Source: Lachnospiraceae bacterium
Lineage (GTDB): Bacteria; Bacillota; Clostridia; Lachnospirales; Lachnospiraceae
Length of the DNA: 64,000 nucleotides
NCBI GenBank assembly: GCA_017460885.1
Contig: JAFUAB010000051.1
Coordinates: forward strand, 1-64,000
Direction: 5' to 3'
Shown: one piece after another, positions 37,551 through 53,152 of the stretch
Layout of the letters: each line of letters begins with the position of its first letter
Position numbering within the stretch: position 1 is the stretch's first letter
The notes under the pieces: model-generated
The model's input: the letters and a program-made list of their open reading frames with translations, nothing else
Database searches by the model: none
Told to the model about the DNA's origin: nothing
Translations under genes and position numbers: made by a program

Positions 37551-37721
37551 TCAAGATTCCGATGAAAATGGTATCTTACAACATATATCTTGTGCTTCTT
37601 CAATCACTTTATCCATGTCATAAACCTTATAACATCCAAGAATAAGAACCTTATACCAATTATCAGTTAATTCCCTTGCTCAAACTGATCCAAAAAGACC
37701 TACGCCCACTATAATTATCAC
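37551..37721 (-). pseudogene. UDP-galactopyranose mutase micro-remnant
   Basis: From a GTG with AGAGGAAAGCATTA upstream, the frame reads IIIVGVGLFGSV, a TGA at 37680-37682, then ARELTDNWYKVLI. This is the FAD-binding Rossmann start of Glf. The next residues, LGCYKVYDMDKVIEEAQDI, match the extreme C-terminus of Glf (RLGxYxYxDMDxVI). About 300 internal residues are therefore deleted and one Cys/Trp-type codon has become TGA. It was once part of this polysaccharide cluster and shows that galactofuranose synthesis has been lost. Confidence 0.6.
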
Positions 37722-39115
37722 TAATGCTTTCCTCTTCTTACTAATGAGATACTCATATGAAGCAAAGACATCATATCATCCTTAAACATTACCAGTGCCA
37801 CAAGGAAAACAAGTGCCAAATAGCTAATAAAGCCGATGATAGATGTAAACCTGCATGAAATGAAAAAAATACAAACTGTCAAAATGACATATATCCATTC
37901 TCTCGTTTCCAGCCTATACTCCCTCAAATCAATCTGACATCTGCACAACCAGATAAACATAGTCAAGAAAGTGGCATATGAAAACGAAACCATTGAAAAA
38001 TCAAATATCCATCCGAAAATAAAGTTCGCCACCACAGCTATAATAGATGTCTCTATCATAATCCTCAAATACCTTTTCTGCAGATTTAAGGCTTTATATA
38101 GATTCATATAAATCGAATTAATAATGACCACAAAAAGCTGGGACAAGATCAGATACATCATCACTGTCTCCGATGGGATATATTTGGTAAGAAAAACATC
38201 TACCACAAGCCTTAATGGAAATGAACAGGAAACGATAATCGCACCGATAATGATTATTTTCTTCCTTATATCCTTTACCTGCTTATTATTATGATGCTCA
38301 CAAAAATAATTGTAAAGCGTAACGGAAAACGCTCCAAACACGGCATTTACCAGCTTCAACATAGATACGGCAAAAGAATAATATGCAAACTCATTCTCAG
38401 AACATCGGAATTTCACGAACCATCTGTCTATACTTGTAATCCATATGGACATAAAGTTCCCAAACATAATGATCATGCCAAGACCAATATATTCTTTAAG
38501 CATTCTAACAATATCTACCAGCTTTATCGTGGTTTTTACAAACAAGTCTCGGATATCATAAGCAAAGAGCAACCATACAATGACGCTAATAACAAAGTAG
38601 CCAATAGCATAGACTCTGGCATCATCGTTTCGCAAAGCCAAAATAAGAAGTATATTGAAAACGAAAACGGTTATAGATTGTGCATTCAATATCCTCCTAT
38701 ATTGCTTAAACTCCCCAGTCGCTTGAAACAAGATACGAAAAAACATTTGCAGATTAGTTGGCATTACGCATAGAACGGCGATGAATAGATATATATCATG
38801 AATGAAGGGGGATACGATAACCCCTATTGCGGTTATCAGGAACTGAAATACAAAAAGTGTCTTCTGAATAGAGGATAATTCTTTTCTTGACAATTCTTCT
38901 AGGTTCTTTCCCCCATATCGAATGTATACTCCGTCAATAAACCCAAAATGTAAAATACCAACATAGCTTGTATAGAGTAGAAATGTTTTGTAATTTGCAT
39001 ATGTTGGAATGGATAGAAATTTTGGAATTATAAAGCCGTTAAAGACAGAAATAATTAGATTTATAGCATTAGCTAAAAGAACCTGAGCAATGCCCTTTCT
39101 TAATTTACTTCGCAT
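37721..39115 (-). CDS. Wzx-type oligosaccharide flippase
   Basis: 464 residues with about 12-14 hydrophobic segments, a basic N-terminus (MRSKLRKGIAQVLLANAINLIISVFNGFIIPKFL) and the MATE/PST-type pattern of lipid-linked repeat-unit flippases. IDRWFVKF and KALNLQKRYL lie in loops as in relatives. It moves the undecaprenyl-linked unit across the membrane for the Wzy polymerase encoded just upstream. AT-rich codon use is typical of such genes. Confidence 0.85.
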   Translation of the reverse strand: MRSKLRKGIAQVLLANAINLIISVFNGFIIPKFLSIPTYANYKTFLLYTSYVGILHFGFIDGVYIRYGGKNLEELSRKELSSIQKTLFVFQFLITAIGVIVSPFIHDIYLFIAVLCVMPTNLQMFFRILFQATGEFKQYRRILNAQSITVFVFNILLILALRNDDARVYAIGYFVISVIVWLLFAYDIRDLFVKTTIKLVDIVRMLKEYIGLGMIIMFGNFMSIWITSIDRWFVKFRCSENEFAYYSFAVSMLKLVNAVFGAFSVTLYNYFCEHHNNKQVKDIRKKIIIIGAIIVSCSFPLRLVVDVFLTKYIPSETVMMYLILSQLFVVIINSIYMNLYKALNLQKRYLRIMIETSIIAVVANFIFGWIFDFSMVSFSYATFLTMFIWLCRCQIDLREYRLETREWIYVILTVCIFFISCRFTSIIGFISYLALVFLVALVMFKDDMMSLLHMSISLVRRGKH

Positions 39116-39167: not shown

Positions 39168-40475
39168 TCACATTATATCTGTCATTATTGTGCCATTTAC
39201 TTCTGTATTGCAATCAAAAGAATCATTCTCTTCGAAATGTACAGAGATTAGACAAAAGGAAAGCGCCAACAGAAAATTTGGTGTAAACCATGAAAACATT
39301 TCATAAAAAAAACCCGAAATAAAAAGGCTCAAAATACTTAACCCACACATCTTATGCAGCCTACTGCGACTGTGTATGCTCTTAATAGAAATGTATATAA
39401 AATAGAAAAGAAACAACAATCCGCCGATACCATAATCCAATAGTGCGGTAAGATATGAATTATCAACCGCTGTTGTCCATCCTCGTATTGAGTGTCTTTG
39501 AAGCAAATTATACGCATACAAATATCCCTTGCCGAAAATCTTGCTTAATACACCCCATCCGGCGAAATCCTGTAGCCCATTTCTTATCATTGTTATTCTA
39601 TTATAATTCCCCGCATCATCAGCATCTAATACAAGCATCCAACGATTTAATAACACTCTACCCGCACTCAATATATAGTCTCTTTGGATAATAAATATAA
39701 CAATCATAAAAATTGCAAAAACTAATCCATAGAATATATTACCAATTTCAATAGTGCCTTTCTTTTTTGATAGCCTTTGTACGAGGTAAATAACATTTAC
39801 AATAGCAAAAGAAATCCAGGAACTTCGGGACTTCGTCCCCATAAGGCATATTATCAGAGCAATCTGAGATATCGTATTTATCCATTTACCCTTCATTGGA
39901 TAGTACAAAAGTATACACCAAATATAAGTACAAAACACTGCACAAATAATTGGATGGAAAAAAATTGTCCTTGCCCTGTTATTTTCTGTTCCTAATAAAT
40001 TAGAAAATTGTATTCGGTTCTCAACATCAATAAATCTCATAAAAATACTAGAACGGGTAATTGTCTCATAAACTCCGAGGACCGCATTTACAATTCCTAT
40101 ATTCCGAAGAGTAATTATTATATCTTCTGCATTTGTAAGGCAAACTGCAAAATATAGAAGAAACAGAACGCCTACCTCATAATACAATATCTTTTTGGTT
40201 CCATCGTAAAGACTCCCTGTTATAAGCGCAGATACAAATATTCTGTATATCATAAAGAAAAAATATACGTATATCACTCTTCTAACAGATACACCATTCA
40301 GTCTTCCATCCTCAGTTTGTCTGGAATACAGTACAAATGCAAATATAAATTCAACCGGGAAAATTATATAGCCCATACGTGATTCGATATTATACTTGCA
40401 GAAAATAACGAGAAGTATGAGCATAGAAATCATAAAGATTGGTATATTGATAGATATTTTATATTTCCTTTCCAA
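39168..40475 (-). CDS. Wzy-type O-antigen/capsule polymerase
   Basis: 435 residues, about 11 transmembrane segments. A long outside loop follows the middle of the protein (GRVLLNRWMLVLDADDAGNYNRITMIRNGLQDFAGWGVLSKIFGKGYLYAYNLLQRHSIRGW), and TVDNSYLTALLDYGIGGLLFLFYF is the common O-antigen ligase/polymerase loop. Sequence conservation in this family is low; identification rests on topology, this loop and position beside Wzx. Confidence 0.75.
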   Translation of the reverse strand: MERKYKISINIPIFMISMLILLVIFCKYNIESRMGYIIFPVEFIFAFVLYSRQTEDGRLNGVSVRRVIYVYFFFMIYRIFVSALITGSLYDGTKKILYYEVGVLFLLYFAVCLTNAEDIIITLRNIGIVNAVLGVYETITRSSIFMRFIDVENRIQFSNLLGTENNRARTIFFHPIICAVFCTYIWCILLYYPMKGKWINTISQIALIICLMGTKSRSSWISFAIVNVIYLVQRLSKKKGTIEIGNIFYGLVFAIFMIVIFIIQRDYILSAGRVLLNRWMLVLDADDAGNYNRITMIRNGLQDFAGWGVLSKIFGKGYLYAYNLLQRHSIRGWTTAVDNSYLTALLDYGIGGLLFLFYFIYISIKSIHSRSRLHKMCGLSILSLFISGFFYEMFSWFTPNFLLALSFCLISVHFEENDSFDCNTEVNGTIMTDIM

Positions 40476-40619: not shown

Positions 40620-41735
40620 CTATTCATCAGATAATAGATGCCTGCCCAAGTATTCCAAGTACACATCTGTACCTTCGATTCCACGCCTATAGCTCTGTTC
40701 CTTCTTCTGGCAGAATTCCTCAAAACCCATCCGTCCATTATATGTCGATCCGCTATCAAGATGCACGACTTTCAGTTGCGGAAAATATATCGTTTTCCAA
40801 TTGTTAAGATAACAGTCCAGACAAAGAATCTGCTCCTCAAAATACATGAATGTCAGAGGATTGAAAAGCACATCTCTCTCTGCAATATAACGCCTATCGA
40901 AGATAATACAGGGCCCTTGCAAACACACGTTCTTGAGCTGTTTTTTGTACAGTCCAAGCTTATTGATATCAACCGTATCTAAGAGCTGTACATTTTCATT
41001 CTCTATTGGTGATGATGCTGTAGAGTGGAAGCTGTCAGAGGATGCTCCGAGCTTTATGGGGCCCTTGCTTTTATGATGCACGGAACTCACCGTTTGTTCC
41101 AGCGTTCTCTTTATTCTAAATAACGCCCGCATCCACCATGTGAAGCGATATCGTTCCCTCACATATTTCTTGAAAGCAAACATATCCCGGTCATGAAGAT
41201 GCTTTGCGCTTGCCTCCCATTCCCTCTTCATCGTGTAAACCTGTTCTACAGATGGATATCCATCTACTGTCATGCGGGGATTCTGGTGAAAGCATCTGTC
41301 TGGAATCAAAATATCCGGACCCGCTACGTGAAAGGGGTATTCCTCATATAAATCAAATAATTTCCTGACAAAGCCGTGCTGAATAAATAACACGTCCGAA
41401 TTGACCGCTATAATGAAATCAGCATCTATATTTTCCTTTGCATAACTGAATGCAATGTTATTCCCGGCAGCGAAGCCGGAATTTTCTTTATTCAGTATTA
41501 CCTTTACTCTGTTATTACTTTCATACTCCTTAAATAATTGCTCCCCGCATCCGTTCGGAGATGCATTATCCAGGATGATAACGTATGGTTCATCAGCCTG
41601 TGGTGCATCCGACTTGTTGACAGCGGCATTCTCAAGCTTAAATATTGATTTCACACATTTTTTTGTAAGCTCTATTTCGTTGTAATTTAAGATGATAAAA
41701 CATACAGAACACCTCTGTTTTTCCCGATTTTCCAT
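40620..41735 (-). CDS. Glycosyltransferase family 2
   Basis: 371 residues of GT-A fold: CFIILNYNEIELTKKCVKSI, VIILDNASPNGCGEQL, NSGFAAGNNIAFSYA and the metal-binding AVNSDVLFIQ. GPDILIPDRCFHQNP and FMYFEEQILCL belong to the rhamnosyltransferase-like GT2 branch. A 60-residue segment at 225-275 is Ser-rich and variable. A paralogue, switched off by poly-G slippage, lies directly upstream on the same strand. Confidence 0.88.
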   Translation of the reverse strand: MENREKQRCSVCFIILNYNEIELTKKCVKSIFKLENAAVNKSDAPQADEPYVIILDNASPNGCGEQLFKEYESNNRVKVILNKENSGFAAGNNIAFSYAKENIDADFIIAVNSDVLFIQHGFVRKLFDLYEEYPFHVAGPDILIPDRCFHQNPRMTVDGYPSVEQVYTMKREWEASAKHLHDRDMFAFKKYVRERYRFTWWMRALFRIKRTLEQTVSSVHHKSKGPIKLGASSDSFHSTASSPIENENVQLLDTVDINKLGLYKKQLKNVCLQGPCIIFDRRYIAERDVLFNPLTFMYFEEQILCLDCYLNNWKTIYFPQLKVVHLDSGSTYNGRMGFEEFCQKKEQSYRRGIEGTDVYLEYLGRHLLSDE

Positions 41736-41916: not shown

Positions 41917-42916
41917 CTAATAACCAAGCGATCTCAAATAATCAATATAAGTGTCCACTGCCTTTATCCTCTGCAAGTATTTACCGGCTCGGCATTTCCT
42001 ATATTCGCTGAAGGATTGCTGACCGAAATCTGCGCTGCCTTCCTGCGTATGCCAGACTTGGACATCTGGATAATACGCCATACGATAGTTATTTAAGGTG
42101 CATCGCAGCTTCAAGAAAAACTCTTCCTCATACATAAAAGTATGCGGCTCGAACAGGACGTCGTTATCCGTTATGAAGTCCTTGTCAAAAATAAGACACG
42201 CGCCAAAAAGAATGCATTCGTCACTACATTCAGACCAGCACCCACCATCCGGCGTCATATTCCTTCCTGTATAACCGACAGCATGATCCCTGAGCGGTAT
42301 CAATGATGTTATGGTTCGTTTCAGCCTCAGCAAAATGCCCGTTACTTTATTTCGATATTTTTCTTTCAAGTAACCTTTGAGCGCAAAAAAAGAGAAGTTC
42401 TTCTCCAACTTCTCGACAGTTCTTTGATATTTCTCCTTTCTTGCACTCATTTCGTTTATGCTGAGGAACGATACTGAATGTTGGATAGGGTTCTGATGCA
42501 GATACCTGTCAGGCACATACACATCCACCCCCCCCCACATTGAACGGCGATCGTTTGTACAGATTGCTTATTTCTTCGATGAATCCAGCATTCGGAAACA
42601 ACACATCGTTATTAGCGGCCACTATAAATTCCGAATCATAATTATCCTTTACGTATCTATATCCGACATTATTCCCTTTCGAGAAACCGCCATTCTCATT
42701 GCATATTATCACATGGATTATTTCGGATTCATATTTATTCCTTAACTTCTCTCCACTGCCATTTGAACTTGCATTGTCAACAACCACTATTCTGCAATCG
42801 TCCACGCCTTTTAACTCAAGAATCGACTCAACTGCCCTTGAAGTCAATGCTTCGTTCATGTAGTGCAACAAGATAAATGCCATTCTTATATGGACTTTTT
42901 CATTATTATAAGCCAT
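41917..42916 (-). pseudogene. Glycosyltransferase family 2, out of frame at a poly-G tract (phase-variable)
   Basis: Two adjacent frames make one GT2. The first (42916 to 42509) holds AFILLHYMNEALTSRAVESI, VVVDNASSNGSGEKL, NGGFSKGNNVGYRYV and the AANNDVLFP metal site. The second (from about 42527 to 41917) holds DVYVPDRYLHQNP, FGACLIFDKDFI and FMYEEEFFLKL. They meet at nine consecutive G (42528-42536). With eight G the frame would be continuous (NVGGVDVYVPDR). Both halves are otherwise intact, which fits reversible slippage and not decay. TAATG couples the start to the upstream gene. A homopolymer read error is the alternative. Confidence 0.75.
42528..42536. repeat. Homopolymer tract (nine G on the coding strand)
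   Basis: A run of nine C on the given strand inside a GT2 gene, exactly at the point where two frames join. Tracts of this kind change length during replication and switch expression. Confidence 0.85.
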
Positions 42917-43953
42917 TATCTAAAACTCTCTATCAGTTCGTACCACTGTCTTGCAGATTTCTCCCAACTGTATTTGTCAAGGATCTTCTGCGGATCTGCC
43001 ACAGGTTCCTTCAATATCTCATCCAAATCATAGTCATATTTGTACGGGTCAATGTAATGCGCTGCATCTTCATACACCTCCGGCAAAGACGATGTATTTG
43101 AAATGATAATTGGCGCTCCGTAATATAGGGCTTCCATCGGAGGGATTCCGAAGCCTTCCATCAACGAAGGAAAGAGAAAGGCTTTGCAGTGCATATATAG
43201 TGCCGCCATTTGCTCATCCGTAATGAAGCCTGTATATATAATATTATTATTTTTTCCACTATAGAATGAAAACTTCTCTGTTTTTCGCAACGCTCCTGCT
43301 ATCACAAACAATGCTGTGCGATTACTGTCAGCAATCCTAAAAATCCAGTCTATATTCTTGTTTCTTACAAGACGCCCTAGGAAGAAATAATATTCTCTAT
43401 CTCTTAGTTTATACTCATCTATTATTTTTTCATCAGGGATGATACTTATAATATGTTGCCAGCTATTAGGAATTACTGTGATTTTTTTCTCATTAACATG
43501 TAATTTGTCAATCATTGTACTTTTACTATATTCAGAAACAGTAACCAGTGATTTTGATAACAATATAGCTTCATATGTTTTAAATTTCAATTTAAAAGTA
43601 TTATACTTATTTAATCCCATTACACCATAGAATGGAAATAAATCATGCCATGTAACGATTGAATTATTCTTTCCTACCGCCATACCATTTAACAAATTGA
43701 TATATAAATAATCACGCCTACACAGCTTAAATAATTCAATATATCTATTTATTCCATTTTTACTGGAATATTCCATCATTGAGATGTTCCTCAAATTCAA
43801 ATTCCAGTGTCCAATTAAATCCTTGTCAACTATCAAGTAATACTCTTCAGATTTAATTATAGAATCTAATCCCACCACAATCTCTCTTGCATATCTCGCT
43901 CCACCAGAAAAATTACGGTCAAAATTTCGCCCATCGATCAACACTTTTTTCAT
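42916..43953 (-). CDS. Glycosyltransferase family 4 (GT-B fold)
   Basis: 345 residues. N-terminal acceptor domain starts KKVLIDGRNFDRNFSGGARYAREIV; the C-terminal donor domain has FFLGRLVRNKNIDWIF, IIYTGFITDEQMAALY and the E-x7-E motif SLMEGFGIPPMEALYYGAPII. Such enzymes transfer sugars from nucleotide donors with retention. The overall size is normal. The end couples to the phase-variable GT2 start (TAATG). Donor and acceptor are unknown. Confidence 0.88.
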   Translation of the reverse strand: MKKVLIDGRNFDRNFSGGARYAREIVVGLDSIIKSEEYYLIVDKDLIGHWNLNLRNISMMEYSSKNGINRYIELFKLCRRDYLYINLLNGMAVGKNNSIVTWHDLFPFYGVMGLNKYNTFKLKFKTYEAILLSKSLVTVSEYSKSTMIDKLHVNEKKITVIPNSWQHIISIIPDEKIIDEYKLRDREYYFFLGRLVRNKNIDWIFRIADSNRTALFVIAGALRKTEKFSFYSGKNNNIIYTGFITDEQMAALYMHCKAFLFPSLMEGFGIPPMEALYYGAPIIISNTSSLPEVYEDAAHYIDPYKYDYDLDEILKEPVADPQKILDKYSWEKSARQWYELIESFR

Positions 43954-44002: not shown

Positions 44003-45019
44003 TCACTCCAATACCCCCCCATACGCTCTCCATCCTAAGTTCTGGAGCAGACTTGTATCCAAATCCATAAATAACGTTTGTGGAAATCCGTTGCTCTTTT
44101 CATCCTGTATATCATAAACCACTTTCACTCCTGCATCTTTTGCAACTTCCTCAGCCATCTGCTTTATTGAGCAATAAGTAGCTTCATTTGCAGCATTGTA
44201 CGCTGCCCCCGATACTCCTTTTAACAGGACAGTCAATATAGCTGTAACTGCATCCGTGGTATAGAGATAGCTTCTTTCCGTTTCTCCTTTGGTCTTTAAA
44301 ACAATATCCTTCCTCTCATTCATGCAGCGCAGGAAGTATGCAAAGATTCTGTTATCGGTATAGTTCACTCCCGGCCCAAATGTCTGTGTCAGACGTATTA
44401 TTTTCGTTGAAACACCATACTCCTTTGCAAAAGCCACGCACATCGATTCACACATAACCTTGCTGATCGGATAACTATTTCTGACATCAAGTGGTGTAAG
44501 ATCTCCAATTTCATCCTCCGTCACCTTATGCCCCTTCTCAGGGTAACCATAAACTTCCATGGATGACAGGTATATAAATCCATCCACTTTATGTTCCTTT
44601 GCAATCTCAAGCACATTCCTTGTACCGATCAGGGCAGTGTCAATTGTTTCTACTGGATTCGTCACGAATCCTTTGCTACTTGTGTTTGATGCACCGTGGA
44701 TAATGAAATCGATCTGATGGCTGTCCAATTTCCTGGGAACTAATCCTTCAACACTATTCTCTATGAACACAATATGTCTGCCATCCATGTCAATGACATT
44801 TTCAAACCGATTCTCTGCTTTTTTACGATCCCTCACCAGCAGAATAAGGTTAATGTTTAAGTCCTTCTCTATGTTGGCTTTTACGAGCGAATTTACAAGC
44901 GTATAACCTATCAGCCCTGTGGCTCCTGTAATAAATATAATCTTATTATTCAGTTTCTCCCAAGGTATGAAATCAGCGTTTACAACCGTTTCGATATCCT
45001 GCTTAAAAATATCACTCAT
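44003..45019 (-). CDS. NAD-dependent epimerase/dehydratase (extended SDR)
   Basis: 338 residues. NAD-binding FITGATGLIGYTLV, catalytic YPISKVMCE (YxxxK) with a Ser/Thr in YLSSMEVYG, and the extended-SDR C-terminus. The coding strand carries seven G near the end (WRAYGGVLE), a potential slippage site affecting only the last few residues. It lies between a cytidylyltransferase gene and a glycosyltransferase gene. It probably makes or modifies the sugar or polyol that the CDP-transferase and LicD use. Confidence 0.85.
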   Translation of the reverse strand: MSDIFKQDIETVVNADFIPWEKLNNKIIFITGATGLIGYTLVNSLVKANIEKDLNINLILLVRDRKKAENRFENVIDMDGRHIVFIENSVEGLVPRKLDSHQIDFIIHGASNTSSKGFVTNPVETIDTALIGTRNVLEIAKEHKVDGFIYLSSMEVYGYPEKGHKVTEDEIGDLTPLDVRNSYPISKVMCESMCVAFAKEYGVSTKIIRLTQTFGPGVNYTDNRIFAYFLRCMNERKDIVLKTKGETERSYLYTTDAVTAILTVLLKGVSGAAYNAANEATYCSIKQMAEEVAKDAGVKVVYDIQDEKSNGFPQTLFMDLDTSLLQNLGWRAYGGVLE

Positions 45020-45093: not shown

Positions 45094-45810
45094 TCAGTCC
45101 AGCTGTGAATTCTCTCTGGCATCATAAAGCGCCCTAAATATATAGAAATCATTCGGTGTTGTGATTTTTATATTGTCTGAGCCGCACTCAGTTATTGCTG
45201 GTTTTAGCCCATAATGGCACATAAGGGTCACAGAATCAATCATGTCATCATATCCATCCTTAAGCGCCTGTTCTTCCTTCTTCAGGATATCATGCAAATA
45301 GAAACTCTGCGGAGCCTTGGCTGATTGCGAGAGATTTCTGTTCATAATATGGTCGACTTCAGCATCCTCATTTAATATGACGAAAGTCTCACTTGCCGGC
45401 GCGCAGGTGATGCATGACCCGTTCTTCTTTACGCATTCTATATTACGGCTGATAAGGTCATGATCGATGAATGGCCTGACCCCATCATGAATAAGAGCCA
45501 CAGTGGCTTCGTCCTCATAAAGCTCTGCGGCCTTCTTCACTCCATTGTATATTGAAAGCTGGCCTGTCCGTCCTCCGGGAACTATGGCTTTGACCTTGTC
45601 CAATCTGTATCGATAGACCAGGTCATTCATATGCCCTATATACTCCTCAAGACAAGCTATCACAATGCCGTCGATGTCGGGATGTGTCTCAAATATTTCA
45701 ACAGTATGCACGATGATAGGTTTCCCATGCACAAGCAAGAACTGCTTGGGCTTCTCGCTCGTCTTCATCCTCCTGCCTGTTCCACCTGCAAATATTACTG
45801 CTACATTCAA
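45094..45810 (-). CDS. IspD/TarI-family cytidylyltransferase
   Basis: 238 residues: AVIFAGGTGRRMKTSEKPKQFLLVHGKPIIVHTVEIFE is the CTP-binding signature, with VPGGRTGQLSIYNGVKKA, LIHDGVRPF and ITTPNDFYIFRALYD following. Members make CDP-methylerythritol (IspD) or CDP-ribitol (TarI, Bcs1). In this setting, next to LicD and glycosyltransferases, a TarI-like CDP-polyol role is more likely than isoprenoid synthesis. The end overlaps the LicD gene start region by 4 bp. Confidence 0.88.
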   Translation of the reverse strand: MNVAVIFAGGTGRRMKTSEKPKQFLLVHGKPIIVHTVEIFETHPDIDGIVIACLEEYIGHMNDLVYRYRLDKVKAIVPGGRTGQLSIYNGVKKAAELYEDEATVALIHDGVRPFIDHDLISRNIECVKKNGSCITCAPASETFVILNEDAEVDHIMNRNLSQSAKAPQSFYLHDILKKEEQALKDGYDDMIDSVTLMCHYGLKPAITECGSDNIKITTPNDFYIFRALYDARENSQLD

Positions 45811-46643
45811 CTTCTTATGTCCTCTTTCCAGGCATTAAATGTATGCATACCAGTTCTTTGATTCTCAGGAGGTAATTTCATATAATCATCACCGTACAAA
45901 AGTCTTAAATGTTCCTTATACATTGCTGTCGTAAAAAACTTTCTGTCTCTAAAATCAACTTTTACTTGTTCAAGATACTCATTCTTTGGTAAATAATCTT
46001 TAAATCTATTAAATGTTAAAATTGCCCCAATATGTTTAGCACTAGAAAAATCAATGTGACGAGCAAGTAAATCTGACCACTTGCTCAATCTGTCTTTTCC
46101 GAATACTTTTGCTAATGGATATAGTGGCACCCTTGCCATTTTCTTAACTAACGTTTTACCTACAAAACCATGATATAACACCCCCTGCATTCCCATTAAG
46201 AGGGACATCAGAGTACACTCTAATCTAAAGAGACTCTTTTTTTCCGGTAATCCATCAAGAGGACAAATATCAATATATAAATTAGTTACAAGATCCTTTC
46301 TTTTTTCAAAAAAAAAGCCTTCATATTTCATATGTATAAATATATTCGAATCTGATAGTCTTACGTAATTAAGATACAGTCTTTTGTCTATCCCCAACAT
46401 ATATTTACCTATGTAACCATCAGCTATTTCACATAGTTTATCATAATCAGGTCGAGGCATATTAACATCAATATCATCATCCCACGGTATAAAACCCTTG
46501 TGTCTTATGGCTCCAAGTAGCGTTCCCCCTGTAAGATAATATCTTAATCCATTATCTTCGCAAAAATCAGCAAATGCACACAAGATTTCATACAGTGCAT
46601 CTTGTATTTCAGTTAAGTCTAATCCCTTTTTTTCGTTCATCAT
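45807..46643 (-). CDS. LicD-family phosphotransferase
   Basis: About 278 residues. The nucleotidyltransferase-fold LicD signature is clear: LRYYLTGGTLLGAIRHKGFIPWDDDIDVNMPRPDYDKL, with the catalytic DDDID. LicD proteins move phosphocholine, phosphoribitol or similar groups from a CDP carrier onto glycans. Directly followed by the CDP-precursor gene, so it probably uses that product. Several ATG/GTG codons occur at the start; none has a strong ribosome site, so translation is probably coupled to the upstream glycyl-radical enzyme gene 10 bp away. Confidence 0.88.
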   Translation of the reverse strand: MMNEKKGLDLTEIQDALYEILCAFADFCEDNGLRYYLTGGTLLGAIRHKGFIPWDDDIDVNMPRPDYDKLCEIADGYIGKYMLGIDKRLYLNYVRLSDSNIFIHMKYEGFFFEKRKDLVTNLYIDICPLDGLPEKKSLFRLECTLMSLLMGMQGVLYHGFVGKTLVKKMARVPLYPLAKVFGKDRLSKWSDLLARHIDFSSAKHIGAILTFNRFKDYLPKNEYLEQVKVDFRDRKFFTTAMYKEHLRLLYGDDYMKLPPENQRTGMHTFNAWKEDIRS

Positions 46644-46655
46644 CACCACAATAAA

Positions 46656-48674
46656 TCACTCATAGATTTTCTCTGCACGTTTAATTATCTGATCCTGATA
46701 ATCTTCTGGAAGTTCTACAAAATAAGCACTAAATCCCCAAACCCTGACAATTAGCCCCTTATACCTTTCAGGATGCATTTTGGCCTCTTTCAATGTTTTG
46801 CTATCTAAAACATTCATTTGCATTTGATAAAATCCTAGCTTTATTGAACTCCTTATAAACTCTATGAATTTTTCTTTATTAGTGAGAATAAAACTAGGAG
46901 GTACAATCAGATCAATTACATTTCCATTCACGCACGGCGAATCATATTGGATATTTCCTGCAAAACTAACCAATTCCGTGTATGACACATCATATGCTGA
47001 TATATGTGTTTCATATGGTTGACCAGACAATCTCCCAGCAAAGTCAGCACCCGTTTTCTTTCCATTTCTCACATAATCAGGAGAACTTAGTCCATATTTC
47101 ACCATTCCACCCAAACTATTAATATGCTTGTCCACAACTTCATTGGATTTAATTATGATATGATTGGTTAATTCAATACTTGAATTGCTGTCATGTGCAA
47201 AACATTTTGAAGTCTTCAGTCTTTGTAATAGTTTCTTGTTAGTATTATAATTTTTAAGGCGAAAACCATTAATTTCATTTAATTTATATTCTTTATCCTC
47301 AAACACATATTTCTTTATATTTAATAGCGAATCTACAGTACTAGCTATGCCGACAGTAGTAACACCATAATTATTATACTTGGCTCCACCCTCAGAAATA
47401 TCTTTCCCGGACTCTGTGCATCCCTCCGTCAATATAGAAAAAAAAGGATCTACCGACCATTTTTGCTCGTTTAAGGAATCTAACGCATCCTCCCAACTGT
47501 CCTTAAGCTGCTTATCATACAGATTTATTAATTCATCATATTCACTAACCTCACTTAATTCATTCTGTGATAAGACTTTCTCGAGAACTTCAAAAAAATC
47601 AAACTTGAGTACATTATTCTGATCTAGGCATTTTCCCGGAATAAATGGCTCCCAACATGCAGAAACTCCATAATTATATACATCACTTTTTAGGAAAATA
47701 CCTTTAGATAGTACGGGAATAATCACATCATCATTTGATAAAAGTGGGCTTCCTGTACTTGACATCAATGCCGCAACTGCCGCCTTTAACAAATCCCTTG
47801 GCATCTGGCTGCTAACTCTGAGTAGCGTCTTCGGATCCGGTCTTTTCAACTCTGCTTGAGCCTTCAGAAATAAATATGTTAAATCGTTACAAAAATATTT
47901 GTCTTTTGATTCCAATCCACCAAGAATGATTATTTGTCCAATATCCCCCATAAGCGATGAACTCTTAAACTCATACCATTCACATAGACATTTCAGGAAA
48001 TCTATTATCATTTCATATGCATCTTCTTTTGTAATAATTCCCTCCCTTATATCATGATGATATGTTTTATCAAGCACCCTATCCAGCAGACCAAGACCAT
48101 TTAATCTATGCCGTGTTTGCCAAAGATACTGATTAAAGAACAAAACCCGCTGAAGAGCCTCATGAAAATGGATAGCAGGATTATTCAATATTCTCTTAAA
48201 TTCCCAAATAAGTCTTTCTTTGTCTAAACTCTGAGTCGAATTCTCTATTGCTATAATTGAACGGTCAATTAATACTTGCAATCCATATATCGTATTTTTT
48301 GCCCTTTCACCATAAATTCCACCAACAGCAATTGCCTTTTCCGCATAATCAATAAAAGCATGGTTTATTATCATATCAAAATCAATTGCGCAATTCCCAA
48401 TAAATGAACCCTTTGCAGCAACTGTCTTATATTCATCTAATGTATAGAAGAAACTAGAACCCTTAACTGGATTCATTCTTATCTCCTGCATAAGTTTTAT
48501 AATATCTTTGGATAAATCCCGATTACCGGTTCCTTTTACAACTCTAAGCTTCATAAAATACGGTAATGCTTTTTTAACATAATTTACTTTGCCGTTTTGA
48601 AGATACTTAAGCGTAAAAGGGATTATGTAATTGATTTGATACAAATCATTTTTGATTTTTGATTTTATGCTCAT
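46656..48674 (-). CDS. Glycyl-radical enzyme of unassigned substrate (PFL-like), within the polysaccharide cluster
   Basis: 672 residues. The PFL/dehydratase fold is recognisable: HFHEALQRVLFFNQYLWQ, the catalytic thiyl site GVSACWEPFIPGKC (Cys340, Glu342; compare GCVEP of dehydratases), SEGGAKYNNYGVTTVG, and the C-terminal glycyl-radical loop IVRVWGFSAYF with Gly about residue 647. All key residues are present, so it should be active when charged by an activase. It is roughly 100-150 residues shorter than pyruvate formate-lyase and choline lyase, mainly at the N-terminus. It is not PFL, which has a Cys-Cys pair at the thiyl site. Flanked by a glycosyltransferase and LicD; its activase is probably at 36684-37544. 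Confidence 0.85.
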   Translation of the reverse strand: MSIKSKIKNDLYQINYIIPFTLKYLQNGKVNYVKKALPYFMKLRVVKGTGNRDLSKDIIKLMQEIRMNPVKGSSFFYTLDEYKTVAAKGSFIGNCAIDFDMIINHAFIDYAEKAIAVGGIYGERAKNTIYGLQVLIDRSIIAIENSTQSLDKERLIWEFKRILNNPAIHFHEALQRVLFFNQYLWQTRHRLNGLGLLDRVLDKTYHHDIREGIITKEDAYEMIIDFLKCLCEWYEFKSSSLMGDIGQIIILGGLESKDKYFCNDLTYLFLKAQAELKRPDPKTLLRVSSQMPRDLLKAAVAALMSSTGSPLLSNDDVIIPVLSKGIFLKSDVYNYGVSACWEPFIPGKCLDQNNVLKFDFFEVLEKVLSQNELSEVSEYDELINLYDKQLKDSWEDALDSLNEQKWSVDPFFSILTEGCTESGKDISEGGAKYNNYGVTTVGIASTVDSLLNIKKYVFEDKEYKLNEINGFRLKNYNTNKKLLQRLKTSKCFAHDSNSSIELTNHIIIKSNEVVDKHINSLGGMVKYGLSSPDYVRNGKKTGADFAGRLSGQPYETHISAYDVSYTELVSFAGNIQYDSPCVNGNVIDLIVPPSFILTNKEKFIEFIRSSIKLGFYQMQMNVLDSKTLKEAKMHPERYKGLIVRVWGFSAYFVELPEDYQDQIIKRAEKIYE

Positions 48675-48744: not shown

Positions 48745-49827
48745 TCACTCAATTCCGAATTCATGAAAGAGATTTCGATACTCCCTTTCGATAAGTTTTA
48801 CATTGTATTTAGCTATAATATCTGACTTTGCATTCTGTCCTAGTTTTTGCAATAGATCCTTATCATTAATAATGTTCCTTATGGCTTCAACATATTCTTC
48901 CTTTTTAACACATAGATATCCATTCACCCTTGTTTTAATCACATCCTTATTGCCATCACATTTACTGACTACGCACGGCTTTGCCAAATACATTACTTCC
49001 ATAAGTGCTATAGAGAGGGATTCCCATAAAGAAGTGAATAAGAATATATCAGAACTCATAATTTTTGCAACTGCTTCAGGTCTTCTAACCCATCCGGTTA
49101 TCGTAATATTAGGACTTTTAAGCTCATGTTCTAAAGGTCCAGCTCCAATCCAAAGAAAATTATATTCCGGAAGGGCTTCTGCTATTTCATTAAAAAGTTT
49201 TGGGTTTTTTTGCGGGACGATTTTCCCTGACAGACAAACTGTAGTTTTATCAAATTTCTCTACTAATGGCTTTGCTTGTTCTATTATTTCATCCATTTCA
49301 TCTGGATTTATACCATTAGGGATGCATATCGCATTCTTTGTAACCTGCTTGCTTGCTTCTAACTCTCCGTCTATATCCGCAATTGTTAAGCAATTCTTCC
49401 TATTAGATAACCTCTCTATCAACTTGTATAGATTTCTTTTCCTAATACTCACATCTTGCATCAAAAAACTATAAGCATGTGGTGAATAAAAAACCTTATA
49501 CTTATCGCAATTAATAGCCCATCTTCCTAATATTCCGGCCTTTGTGGAATGCAGATGTATCAAATCTGGATTAAGCTTCTTAACAATTTTCTTAATATGT
49601 ATGAATGCTTTCAAGTCATTTTTTGGTTCTATCTCTCTTGTAAAGCCATTAACCTTTATAAACTGTACTCGTTTATCAAACTGATTTTTGAAATTTTCGG
49701 GAGTCTCTGGACGCGTGGAATATGCTACCACAACTTTATAGTCTTTAACTTGCCAAGTGGTAATATTCTTAACATAATTAAGAACTCCACTTCCCAAACA
49801 TTCGGTTATATGCAATATTGTTTTCAT
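48745..49827 (-). CDS. Glycosyltransferase family 4 (GT-B fold)
   Basis: 360 residues starting MKTILHITECLGSGVLNYVKNIT. The first half holds LIHLHSTKAGILGRWA; the second holds CLSGKIVPQKNPKLFNEIAEALPEYNFLWIGAGPLEHEL and SLWESLSIALMEVMYLAKPCVVS (E-x7-E). ATG 49827 overlaps the stop of the upstream transferase gene (ATGA). It probably adds the second sugar on the lipid-linked primer, by position. The frame extends 15 codons upstream without start signals. Confidence 0.88.
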   Translation of the reverse strand: MKTILHITECLGSGVLNYVKNITTWQVKDYKVVVAYSTRPETPENFKNQFDKRVQFIKVNGFTREIEPKNDLKAFIHIKKIVKKLNPDLIHLHSTKAGILGRWAINCDKYKVFYSPHAYSFLMQDVSIRKRNLYKLIERLSNRKNCLTIADIDGELEASKQVTKNAICIPNGINPDEMDEIIEQAKPLVEKFDKTTVCLSGKIVPQKNPKLFNEIAEALPEYNFLWIGAGPLEHELKSPNITITGWVRRPEAVAKIMSSDIFLFTSLWESLSIALMEVMYLAKPCVVSKCDGNKDVIKTRVNGYLCVKKEEYVEAIRNIINDKDLLQKLGQNAKSDIIAKYNVKLIEREYRNLFHEFGIE

Positions 49828-50612
49828 CACACCGCCCCATGCTTCCCGAGAACAGCCAGTACCGTAGCCCACAGCAATTTCAAATCAGTTCCTACACTCA
49901 TCTCATTTATATACTTTAAATCCATCTCCACCCATTCATCCCACGGAACTTCAGCCCTACCGTCAACCTGCCAGAAACAAGTAAGCCCCGGCTTCACGCA
50001 CCATCTTTGGAAGTCATAAGGATCACCATCTTCCTTCGTTGTCTGTATCGGTCTGGGACCTACCAAACTCATCTCCCCTTTCAGCACGTTCCAAAGTTGC
50101 GGTAATTCATCTATCGTAGTTTTCCTCATAAACTTTCCGACCTTCGTGATTCTTGGATCATCCTTAACCTTAAAGGCCATACCATTTTTATCATCCTCAC
50201 CGACCACCTCAGCAGTGCGACTTTCTGCATCCACGCACATCGATCTGAACTTATGCATCGGGAAGTACTTAAAATCTTTACCCCATCGCTGCCCAGAGAA
50301 TATCACCGGACCACCATCTTCCATTTTTATTGCTATAGCCATAACAAGGAACAAAGGAGACAGAATAATGAGACCTAAAGCAGAAGCGATAATATCAAAG
50401 AGCCGTTTCACAATCTTGTAGGCTATAGGCTTTGCTGCATACACTGCTTTCATATCCATGCCTTCATAAGCACGGATGACTCTACCCATGGAATCAAACT
50501 GAATATTACTGTACTTTCTCTCCACCCGCTGTATAGGTTTCATGTCATGCTTTAGTGCTAATGCCCTATTATGCGAAACACCATCAATTGCCTCCGCCGT
50601 CGCTGAATTCAT
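49827..50612 (-). CDS. Initiating phosphosugar transferase (WcaJ/CpsE type)
   Basis: 261 residues. One membrane segment (LFDIIASALGLIILSPLFLVMAIAIKM) and the catalytic bacterial sugar-transferase domain: GPVIFSGQRWGKDFKYFPMHKFRSM, TKVGKFMRKTTIDELPQLWNVLKGEMSLVGPRP, KPGLTCFWQVDGRAE. It transfers a sugar-1-phosphate to undecaprenyl phosphate, the first step of the repeat unit. The N-terminal multi-span domain of WcaJ is absent, as in short CpsE/PglC forms. GGAGAGATGAAAAA fits the ATG at 50612. First gene of the sugar-assembly block. Confidence 0.9.
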   Translation of the reverse strand: MNSATAEAIDGVSHNRALALKHDMKPIQRVERKYSNIQFDSMGRVIRAYEGMDMKAVYAAKPIAYKIVKRLFDIIASALGLIILSPLFLVMAIAIKMEDGGPVIFSGQRWGKDFKYFPMHKFRSMCVDAESRTAEVVGEDDKNGMAFKVKDDPRITKVGKFMRKTTIDELPQLWNVLKGEMSLVGPRPIQTTKEDGDPYDFQRWCVKPGLTCFWQVDGRAEVPWDEWVEMDLKYINEMSVGTDLKLLWATVLAVLGKHGAV

Positions 50613-50754
50613 TTTTTCATCTCTCCTATCGCTCAATCCTCAGTTCCTCTAAATTGTCCTCTTTGCCATTACACCATGTCATCCTCTGATGCCCATCTAT
50701 ATTCAAGTCTCAGCACTACAGTTCTCTGCCTCATCTAAGAATGTAGGTTTTTCG

Positions 50755-51237: not shown

Positions 51238-51634
51238 GTGCCCTATTCGACAAGGAATGAGCTCCTAAGTATTATTTCGGTGTACAACCAGAATCATGCT
51301 AATGTGTTTTATTGTCAGCTACGATGTCACAATAATGAGTCTCCTTTGTCGGATGTTTCGAGCCCCGCGGTTTTCGTTAGCGTCCTCGTAAGAGTGAACG
51401 CTCTCTCACAGCCTGGGCCTGCGGTATTAGCGAATTTTTGTCATGAAGTCTGCGAACTCCTAGATGAGTTTCGTCTACTCGATACCGCTTCAATTGAAGC
51501 ATCGTGCTAAGACGCTGACATTATGTCGTTGCAATCGTGCCACAGCACTCATGATCAGTTTCGTTTACTACCGTTTACAACTTGCACTTCCAGAAAGGAG
51601 GTCTGGACTTCATATATGTCCAGGATTATTTGTT
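51238..51634 (+). ncRNA. Non-coding 5' region of the IS110 element; candidate bridge RNA
   Basis: About 400 bp with no supportable gene between the strong promoter and the transposase ATG. IS110-family elements are now known to carry a structured guide ('bridge') RNA in a non-coding end. This region has the right place and size, with short pairings such as GCGAACTC/GAGTTCG-like stretches near 51446-51475. No secondary structure could be computed here, so this is a candidate only. Confidence 0.4.
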
Positions 51635-53152
51635 ATGTCAAAACATCAATCACCAAATCTACTCAATACCTCTATCCTCGCAAGAAATGAAACTGAGGTC
51701 CAAATCATTGACGATGGTGTCGAGGTTCAAAAACTTAAGTCCTATGGTGTCGGTATCGACTGTCATTCCCGTTTTATCGTCATCTGCGTTCATGTCAGGC
51801 GCAATAATAAGGTGTTCAAATACATCAAGGAATTTGACACCGAATGGTCTTCGCTTGTCTCTGCCAGGGAATGGGTCATCAATGTAATCAAAAAATATTC
51901 CGACCCAGTGCCAGACACCTCGAAGCCTCTCCATTATGTTATTGAGGCAACAGCAACATACCATATGCCCATACTTCTCGCATGGGAAGGCAACCCTTCT
52001 GTAATCAACCCGACAATAGCCGGGGCAACCAAGCGTAAGACTGATGTGCTCGATGCGGAGCGCCTCTCTTTTCATGACTTATCAAATATTTGGCCTGAAT
52101 CATATATAGTTCCAACTCCAGTTCAAGAATTGCGCGTCCTTATTTCAGAACGAGAGCATTTCGTCAAGCTTGCCACGCGGTGCTCCAATAGGATAAATAA
52201 CATGATCGTGCGCTTCGGTATTACCTCTGCCTCAAAGGGTAGCGTAGTCAAAAACCAGGAAACTCGTGCCCTGATCGAAGATCTGGCTTCTGATCATCCA
52301 TCCAAGCATGAGGGTGTCTGTCCAAAAGGTCTACCAGCCGATGTGAAACAAGTCATCCGGCGCGAATATGAGCAATACGACATATTCACAAATTATGCTG
52401 CCGAGTACCTTGACCGCATCAGGGCTAAAGTCGGCTCCATTGAATGGGAAACCAAGGACGGCACCCTTCCGGGTTCAGAAATGGTGCGCATCCTACTGAC
52501 AACTCCTGGCGTTGGCGAGATAACATGTTTCACTTGGCTTGCATATGTTTCAACTCCTCGCCGTTTTCCAAACGGCAAAGCCCTTAGTGCCTATTGTGGA
52601 CTTGATCCAAGCCTTAAGGTCAGTGCCGGTCATGTGACAAGTGTCAAAAAACGAGGCGGTTGTCGCCCTCTTCACAATATCCTCGTAAACAGTGCCGATA
52701 AAATCATGCGCGGCCATTCAGAGGCTTTCGGAAGATGGGGTTATATGTATGTCCAAAGTGGCGGCAAATGGAAGAAAGCAACCCATGCCGTCGCCCGCAA
52801 ACTGGCAATTGCCATGTACTACATGATGCTGACCGGTCAGGAATTCTCATATGAAAAGTATTCCATGGTCAAGGATGCTACCGTCCTCGATATTCCAGTT
52901 GAAGCCCTTCCAGAACTCAATGGAGACTTCAAACGCTATATCAAAATCCTTCAAGAACATGACCTGAATACCACGGGCGATGTAATCACCTCATATTTGT
53001 CTTGCAACCTTGCCAGCATCAACGGTCTTGGGAGAAAGTTTTTCACCACTCTCCAGGACTTTATCACTCATCAGCGGAAATACCGCGAGGAATACCAAAA
53101 ACTGCATCCAGAATCAAAGGACGCTTCCTTAAGCGTCACCGTCACCGCGTGA
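51635..53152 (+). CDS. IS110-family transposase (DEDD recombinase)
   Basis: 505 residues. The RuvC-like DEDD domain comes first: SYGVGIDCHSRFIVICVHV (Asp), HYVIEATATYHMP (Glu) and KRKTDVLDAERL (Asp-x2-Asp). The C-terminal Transposase_20 domain has a helix-hairpin-helix (LLTTPGVGEITCFTWLAY) and ALSAYCGLDPSLKVSAGHVTSVKKRGGCRPLHNILVNSA with its conserved Ser. All catalytic residues are present. It is longer than the usual 340-420 residues, mainly through a 90-residue C-terminal tail. The ATG at 51635 is the first in frame with family similarity; the frame is open upstream. Confidence 0.9.
   Translation: MSKHQSPNLLNTSILARNETEVQIIDDGVEVQKLKSYGVGIDCHSRFIVICVHVRRNNKVFKYIKEFDTEWSSLVSAREWVINVIKKYSDPVPDTSKPLHYVIEATATYHMPILLAWEGNPSVINPTIAGATKRKTDVLDAERLSFHDLSNIWPESYIVPTPVQELRVLISEREHFVKLATRCSNRINNMIVRFGITSASKGSVVKNQETRALIEDLASDHPSKHEGVCPKGLPADVKQVIRREYEQYDIFTNYAAEYLDRIRAKVGSIEWETKDGTLPGSEMVRILLTTPGVGEITCFTWLAYVSTPRRFPNGKALSAYCGLDPSLKVSAGHVTSVKKRGGCRPLHNILVNSADKIMRGHSEAFGRWGYMYVQSGGKWKKATHAVARKLAIAMYYMMLTGQEFSYEKYSMVKDATVLDIPVEALPELNGDFKRYIKILQEHDLNTTGDVITSYLSCNLASINGLGRKFFTTLQDFITHQRKYREEYQKLHPESKDASLSVTVTA

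Follow-up and report, generated by a model that had tools for sequence, protein, structure and literature searches.

A glycyl-radical enzyme clade in surface-glycan assembly loci: gene context, active site and a proposed role in carbohydrate modification

The window analysed here, a stretch of 64,000 nucleotides from a Lachnospiraceae bacterium (GCA_017460885.1, contig JAFUAB010000051.1), carries within a surface-glycan cluster a gene for a glycyl-radical enzyme (GRE) of 672 amino acids. Open reading frame (ORF) analysis places it at 46656-48674 on the minus strand with an ATG start, and the opposite (plus) strand contains many stops over this interval. The protein matches the Pfam families PFL-like (E=1.7e-61, above the cut-off) and Gly_radical (E=4.7e-12; 46.8 bits against a cut-off of 22.2). 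Its thiyl cysteine, Cys340, lies within SACWEP, where Cys340-Trp341-Glu342 forms a C-x-E motif, and its glycyl loop, RVWGFSAYF, places the radical glycine at Gly647. The AlphaFold2 model (pLDDT 93.2, pTM 0.93) has the GRE barrel fold with the thiyl cysteine loop. Judged from sequence and model, the gene is genuine, chance being excluded, and its product is predicted to be a complete GRE with Cys340, C-x-E and Gly647, confidently modelled as an eliminase-type fold.

A first-pass annotation of the same DNA had recognised this 672-residue enzyme, its Cys340 and its glycyl loop, without giving the strand, and had placed the gene between those for a family 4 glycosyltransferase (GT4) and a LicD protein; all of this holds, the two neighbours being identified by Pfam (48745-49872 and 45807-46649). 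Its description of the protein as short at the N-terminus proved right in part. Residue 160 matches chain residue 252 of 5i2a, so that solved GREs have some 90-100 residues more ahead of this point. The end itself is not shortened: the structural alignment begins at residue 36 against chain residue 28, which, together with the short part before residue 160, indicates that the shortening is internal and that the first ~35 residues are extra. This N-terminal stretch is basic, with a net charge of +9 over the first 55 residues. The genes of the cluster follow one another on the minus strand in this order:

49827-50636, minus strand: initiating polyprenyl-phosphate sugar-phosphate transferase (Bac_transf), the cluster's first gene; Pfam 4.3e-66
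48745-49872, minus strand: GT4 glycosyltransferase immediately upstream of the GRE; Pfam, with the same ORF cluster and position in loci L043 and L056
46656-48674, minus strand: glycyl-radical enzyme, 672 amino acids; Pfam, motifs and AlphaFold2 model
45807-46649, minus strand: LicD-family phosphotransferase, 6 bp beyond the GRE; Pfam 1.6e-37
45094-45810, minus strand: IspD/TarI-like cytidylyltransferase of CDP-polyol type; Pfam IspD 2.6e-38, NCBIfam ribitol-5-phosphate type 158.8 against a cut-off of 166
44003-45019, minus strand: NAD-dependent epimerase/dehydratase (short-chain dehydrogenase/reductase, SDR); Pfam 8.3e-42
42916-43953, minus strand: second GT4 glycosyltransferase; Pfam
41917-42916, minus strand: family 2 glycosyltransferase (GT2) gene in two ORFs (42509-42916 and 41917-42540), split at a poly-G tract
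40620-41735, minus strand: GT2 glycosyltransferase; Pfam 1.9e-14
39168-40475, minus strand: candidate Wzy-type polymerase; Pfam Wzy_C 1.6e-9
37721-39115, minus strand: probable Wzx-type flippase, a membrane protein of 464 amino acids, proposed from its clustering with a 478-residue ORF of locus L044
36684-37544, minus strand: radical-SAM GRE activase, 286 amino acids, with CxxxCxxC; TIGR02494 202.6 bits against a cut-off of 174.35, Pfam Radical_SAM and Fer4_12

The Pfam scan returned no match for the probable flippase and no match to the auxiliary Fer4 dicluster domain in the activase. This activase gene had been absent from the first-pass account; with it, a complete GRE system of enzyme and activase is present inside a single glycan cluster, the pairing of the two being putative.

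The window GRE stays far below the cut-offs of the named GRE families. It scores 227.7 bits with TIGR01774 (PFL2/glycerol dehydratase; cut-off 678.2), 176.1 with the CutC model (1050), 194.1 with the PflD-type NF007437 (1109) and 33.3 with TIGR01255 for pyruvate formate-lyase (PFL; 994.2), and the NCBIfam equivalogs for CutC, HypD, sulfopropanediol dehydratase, 4-hydroxyphenylacetate decarboxylase and indoleacetate decarboxylase give 125-176 bits against cut-offs of 1000-1150. The adjacent Cys-Cys pair of PFL, correctly reported missing in the first-pass annotation, is replaced by C340-W341. The clade is present in eight of 392 genomes of the order, that of the window included; scores drop from 447-520 bits in the seven relatives to 217 in the next GRE. 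Scanning a collection of 84,980 species genomes yielded at least 80 loci, those of the seven relatives among them; these 80 and the window make up the 81 loci analysed here. In a tree of 95 GREs, built by a quick search, drawn with midpoint rooting and leaving out eight clade members under 600 amino acids, 73 glycan-locus GREs are split from 22 others of the order with 100% support in the Shimodaira-Hasegawa-like approximate likelihood ratio test (SH-aLRT). Grouping with an assigned family, which the first-pass annotation had named as the outcome that would speak against its proposal, was thus not found; by these sequence comparisons the window GRE clusters with no assigned family, and the clade is undescribed in the material searched.

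The clade is found in Lachnospiraceae, other Bacillota, Eggerthellaceae, Breznakiella, Synergistota, one Saccharibacteria record, Methanobrevibacter and one Thermoplasmata record, a distribution that suggests movement across phyla and between domains. Metagenome bins make up many of the records, and binning errors could account for single placements. Isolates among the carriers are Breznakiella homolactica (complete genome), Hungatella hathewayi DSM 13479 and [Clostridium] aerotolerans DSM 5434. The archaeal records (L048, L050, L062, L121 and L079, from Methanobrevibacter and Thermoplasmata) hold a glycan GRE with activase, which suggests inter-domain transfer in gut communities. In Methanobrevibacter sp. 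87.7 (L121, 3332-5202) the GRE appears as two ORFs of 390 and 205 amino acids, a copy that may be broken or misassembled. The chromosome of the spirochaete B. homolactica (NZ_CP067089.2) carries two separate glycan GRE loci (L093 and L111) about 25 kb apart. No relative was found among 23 pattern matches on viral contigs; of 26 plasmid records, none reached 80% query coverage in one place, with identities of about 30% or less among the 20 listed.

The same neighbourhood recurs in other genomes, which bears out the link to glycan assembly drawn in the first-pass annotation. At least one glycan-assembly gene is present in 76/81 loci, a Wzx family in 55/81, and an activase in 73/81 (same-strand in 72 of these, at a median distance of 25 bp); none of the 40 control loci described below has an activase. 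Of the eight GRE loci without one, five end within 2 kb on one side. The five loci without genes of the glycan-assembly clusters (L064, L091, L102, L112 and L114) include, as judged by eye, one short contig as well as loci whose sugar-type genes do not belong to these clusters. In L075, a GRE-activase-Wzx trio stands isolated from glycosyltransferases. Judged by eye, the GREs of the order that come next in similarity (contexts L143-L147) lie outside glycan clusters. Four fusions tie the clade to the assembly machinery: GT2-GRE in L079, L083 and L097, and Wzx-GRE in L104 (those in L083, L079 and L104 were checked with Pfam). The top solved-structure profile match of the fused GT2 is GlfT2 (E=1.7e-12), and it shares the N-x-GG-x-GGF motif and the DDD with GlfT1 and GlfT2, but these GT2s fall below the GlfT1 equivalog cut-off (NF050113: 74.2 against 330 for the fusion partner in L083, and 65-88 bits for all six GT2s scanned). 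Auxiliary ferredoxin clusters are usual in eliminase activases. In 57/73 activases at most two cysteines follow within 75 residues of CxxxCxxC, and 14 retain four to six; the auxiliary clusters look lost in most clade activases. Beside the GRE of L034 (295-4566, the same locus as L063) we noted by eye genes resembling phosphonopyruvate decarboxylase, iron alcohol dehydrogenase and a nucleotidyltransferase fusion, so that phosphonate decoration of this glycan is possible.

To identify the partners of the clade, we compared the 36 GRE loci flanked by 8 kb or more on each side (45/81 excluded: 44 short on one side, plus the window) with 40 control loci from genomes of the order, 20 anchored on Wzx and 20 on the initiating transferase, the GRE being absent from each stretch. 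Three galactofuranose markers were scored: UDP-galactopyranose mutase, the beta-1,6-galactofuranosyltransferase family, and GT2s with N-x-GG-[AS]-GG-[FYW]. At least one was present in 28/36 GRE loci against 3/40 controls with the GT2 defined by motif (Fisher p=1.8e-10), and in 29/36 against 8/40 with a looser profile (p=1.9e-7). Taken singly, the mutase occurs in 17/36 against 2/40 and the GT2 by profile in 21/36 against 7/40. One representative mutase passes TIGR00031 (422.8 against 303.75), and one representative of the beta-1,6 family has 259 bits against the NF007326 cut-off of 420. LicD shows no such enrichment (6/36 against 8/40, p=0.77), nor does the IspD type (6/36 against 3/40, p=0.29). 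The enriched partners of the clade are therefore galactofuranose genes, not LicD, and the link to the CDP/LicD branch, which the first-pass annotation had raised as one possibility, is rejected as a general rule. Five controls were under 19.8 kb, GRE loci measuring 20.2-22.0 kb; controls L128 and L161 come from genomes with a GRE elsewhere; and the GRE loci are partly related. A link at genome level was also considered and was uninformative, the mutase being too common: it occurs in 173/392 genomes, including all eight GRE carriers, and at least four genomes of the same family lack it. Only the locus-level comparison helped. Among the six nearest tree neighbours of the window GRE, L045 has a mutase, L077 the beta-1,6 family and L116 the GT2, and L043, L044 and L056 have no marker in the available sequence. 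L043 and L056, whose GREs are 53-55% identical to that of the window, have the GT4 upstream and no LicD, their sequence ending 2.6-5.3 kb upstream.

The active site of the clade is uniform: C340, W341, E342, G647, K237, D244, Q247, K282, R286, Y335, N354, R548 and R644 are invariant in 68/68 sequences. Aligned to glycerol dehydratase, the C-x-E is kept and the classical His164 and Asp447 of glycerol and propanediol dehydratase are replaced by Asn94 and Asn354, Asn standing at these places in 66/68 and 68/68 clade members. Tyr339 aligns with Gly246 and Tyr640 falls in a gap. His189 was considered as the counterpart of glycerol dehydratase His281, but an alignment gap lies there and the match is not proposed. 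In glycerol dehydratase, His164 and Asp447 probably act in acid-base steps. G-C-V-E and V-A-G are found in all five aligned solved GREs, D-P-K in none. Among 18 classical GREs, G-C-V is found in 18, Glu in 17, His in 15, Asp in 13, and Ala before the radical Gly in 17.

A sister family (E of 1e-90 or less in 19/391 genomes of the class, compared through 17 rows from 16 contexts) shares with the clade A-C-W-E, D-P-K, W-G and Asn for the classical His and Asp, a combination found in none of the five aligned solved GREs; N94, D244, Q247, D280, K282, A339, W341, N354 and W646 are each common to 16/17 sister rows. Its members are mostly 656-700 amino acids long (L145, L174-L187; 755 in L143) and have other residues at the clade's K237, H557, F571 and D588. 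Unlike the clade, the sister genes lie not in glycan assembly but near AraC-type regulators (8/16 loci), near GH4, rhamnosidase or raffinose-synthase-type genes (single or few loci), or, in one locus, alongside a sugar ABC transporter, an ADP-dependent sugar kinase and a class-II aldolase. Several sister loci have no recognised sugar gene. The sister activase of L145 carries Fer4 clusters. The simplest reading is that one radical carbohydrate reaction would serve breakdown in the sister family, itself a candidate for new radical sugar catabolism, and glycan building in the clade, where the clade-only residues R176, Q186, G193, K237, H557, F571 and D588 would set a larger or membrane-bound substrate.

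The basic N-terminus is also a property of the clade. The net charge of the first 55 residues has a median of +9 in 68 clade proteins (range -6 to +18; 61/68 at +5 or more) and a median of +2 in other GREs (n=20; with three incomplete or distant proteins added, 7/23 reach +5); beyond this stretch, clade proteins are slightly negative. This charge and the flippase fusion suggest that the enzyme acts on a lipid-linked unit at the surface of the membrane. Because the clade sits almost wholly in glycan loci with its activase in the same cluster, is fused to GT2 and Wzx proteins and has a basic N-terminus, we lean towards the reading that it modifies a carbohydrate of the surface-glycan repeat unit during assembly, close to the membrane, eliminating water before the unit is flipped. 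Of the dehydration and the C-C/C-O cleavage named as possibilities in the first-pass annotation, either may apply, the C-x-E motif, kept in 68/68, favouring elimination; according to PMC7077986, this motif marks GRE eliminases, for which a direct-elimination scheme is described.

Under this proposal, the activase would set the radical on Gly647, from which it would pass to Cys340 as a thiyl. The thiyl would abstract hydrogen from a carbon that bears a hydroxyl, in a sugar or polyol of the membrane-bound unit under construction; Glu342 would act as the base that deprotonates that hydroxyl, and the neighbouring hydroxyl would leave as water, giving a deoxy-carbonyl residue and regenerating the thiyl. 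Most members of the family probably act on galactofuranose, which carries a glycerol-like exocyclic 1,2-diol; in the window, the target may be either the sugar that the upstream GT4 adds or a polyol belonging to that unit. The modification would precede export of the unit by the Wzx flippase. A more specific form of the proposal, which we put forward only tentatively, is that the GRE is bound at the membrane together with its glycosyltransferase and flippase and there removes water by radical chemistry from the exocyclic diol of a lipid-linked furanose, or from a polyol arm, so that a deoxy-carbonyl sugar enters the glycan; the coat would then differ chemically between anoxic and oxygen-exposed cells.

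Several observations weigh against the proposal. The window cluster has none of the three galactofuranose markers, which are also missing from 8/36 complete loci by motif and 7/36 by profile, and 7/40 controls have the GT2 by profile. When the fused GT2 is searched as a single sequence, the top match is GalT1 (E=0.0019) and not GlfT2, and in structure GalNAc-T2 is almost as similar to the fused GT2 as GlfT2 is. Controls were not matched for host or species, and 15/36 GRE loci come from one rabbit metagenome series. The case for action at the membrane consists of charge and fusions only. With His164 and Asp447 replaced by Asn, the chemistry may not be dehydration, and in the neighbourhood clusters, where the scan took in part of the ORFs only, no constant reductase or aminotransferase partner was seen, and thus no constant reductase to use a carbonyl product.

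The active-site points would also fit another radical reaction on the same glycan, such as epimerisation (hydrogen leaving one face and returning to the other), a rearrangement or C-C cleavage: Asn also replaces the classical His and Asp in 16/17 sister rows each, Tyr640 of glycerol dehydratase lies in a gap and Tyr339 at Gly246, and no constantly linked reductase was seen. We regard this as unlikely, though less so than the other alternatives, the eliminase C-x-E being kept in 68/68 clade sequences and the nearest folds being propanediol dehydratase, CutC and glycerol dehydratase. It is comparably unlikely that the enzyme acts before transfer on a nucleotide sugar, for example UDP-galactofuranose, with the glycosyltransferase then adding the altered furanose; the flippase fusion, the basic N-terminus and the GRE-activase-Wzx trio of L075 point to a later step. 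The arrangement in the window, where LicD, IspD-type and SDR genes directly follow the GRE, and in L045, where LicD adjoins it too, would suit an enzyme for a small precursor, that is, a free sugar phosphate, polyol phosphate or CDP-polyol feeding the LicD/IspD branch, and GREs solved with anhydrohexitol phosphates exist (8id0 and 8id7, by their titles). However, neither LicD nor IspD-type genes are enriched over controls, relatives are fused to a glycosyltransferase and a flippase, and L043 and L056 lack LicD in the available sequence, so that we consider this improbable. The enzyme might also be imagined as a catabolic passenger, or as an oxygen-sensing switch, that resides in glycan loci without acting on the glycan, as the sister family looks catabolic and oxygen destroys the glycyl radical; its occurrence in glycan loci of several phyla, the fusions and the fully conserved catalytic residues make this very improbable.

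If elimination on the repeat unit is correct, radical chemistry would be added to surface-glycan assembly, with sugar residues to look for in the coats of anaerobes, and coat chemistry would depend on anoxia, the radical dying in oxygen. A GRE role in glycan assembly would then be common to gut bacteria and methanogens, and the cultured carriers H. hathewayi DSM 13479, [C.] aerotolerans DSM 5434 and B. homolactica offer a test set.

The poly-G tract that interrupts the GT2 gene is a C-run at 42528 on the plus strand, and two assembled copies of the locus (contigs C33 and C50) differ in tract length, 9 against 7; over 20 kb they are 99.985% identical, with no mismatch and two gap openings in total. 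The split gene looks like a phase-variable glycosyltransferase. The cluster is thus present twice in the assembly (C33 and C50:77455-79470), and C50 may derive from a second strain, as the listed contamination of the genome is 6.64%. An IS110-like transposase ORF (51464-53152), noted by eye, lies just upstream of the cluster's first gene.

The literature drawn on here comprises PMC7077986, PMC11574389 and PMC12413058; the GREs named in it, those of PMC7077986 included, have small metabolites or nucleotides as substrates, for the most part in degradative or central pathways. No report of a GRE in glycan assembly was found in the open literature searched, a scope with subscription papers and preprints largely outside it and partly limited to top-ranked matches. 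The present enzymes are accordingly described as a GRE clade with a putative new role and a distinct active site (A-C-W-E, D-P-K and W-G), with no characterised member in the material searched. Compared with the GRE eliminases 1,2-propanediol dehydratase (5i2a), glycerol dehydratase (1r8w) and CutC (5fau/6nd3), the window GRE is 22-25% identical and has A-C-W-E and V-W-G for G-C-V-E and V-A-G, Asn for His164 and Asp447, a shortened part before residue 160, an extra basic stretch in the first 35 residues, and a glycan context. The probable dehydratases PflD/YbiW (8yjo, 8id0 and 8id7) are 20-23% identical to it, with G-C-V-E and V-A-G in 8id0 and 8yjo; the titles of 8id0 and 8id7 name 1,5-anhydromannitol- and 1,5-anhydroglucitol-6-phosphate, so that carbohydrate-type ligands are already known among GREs.
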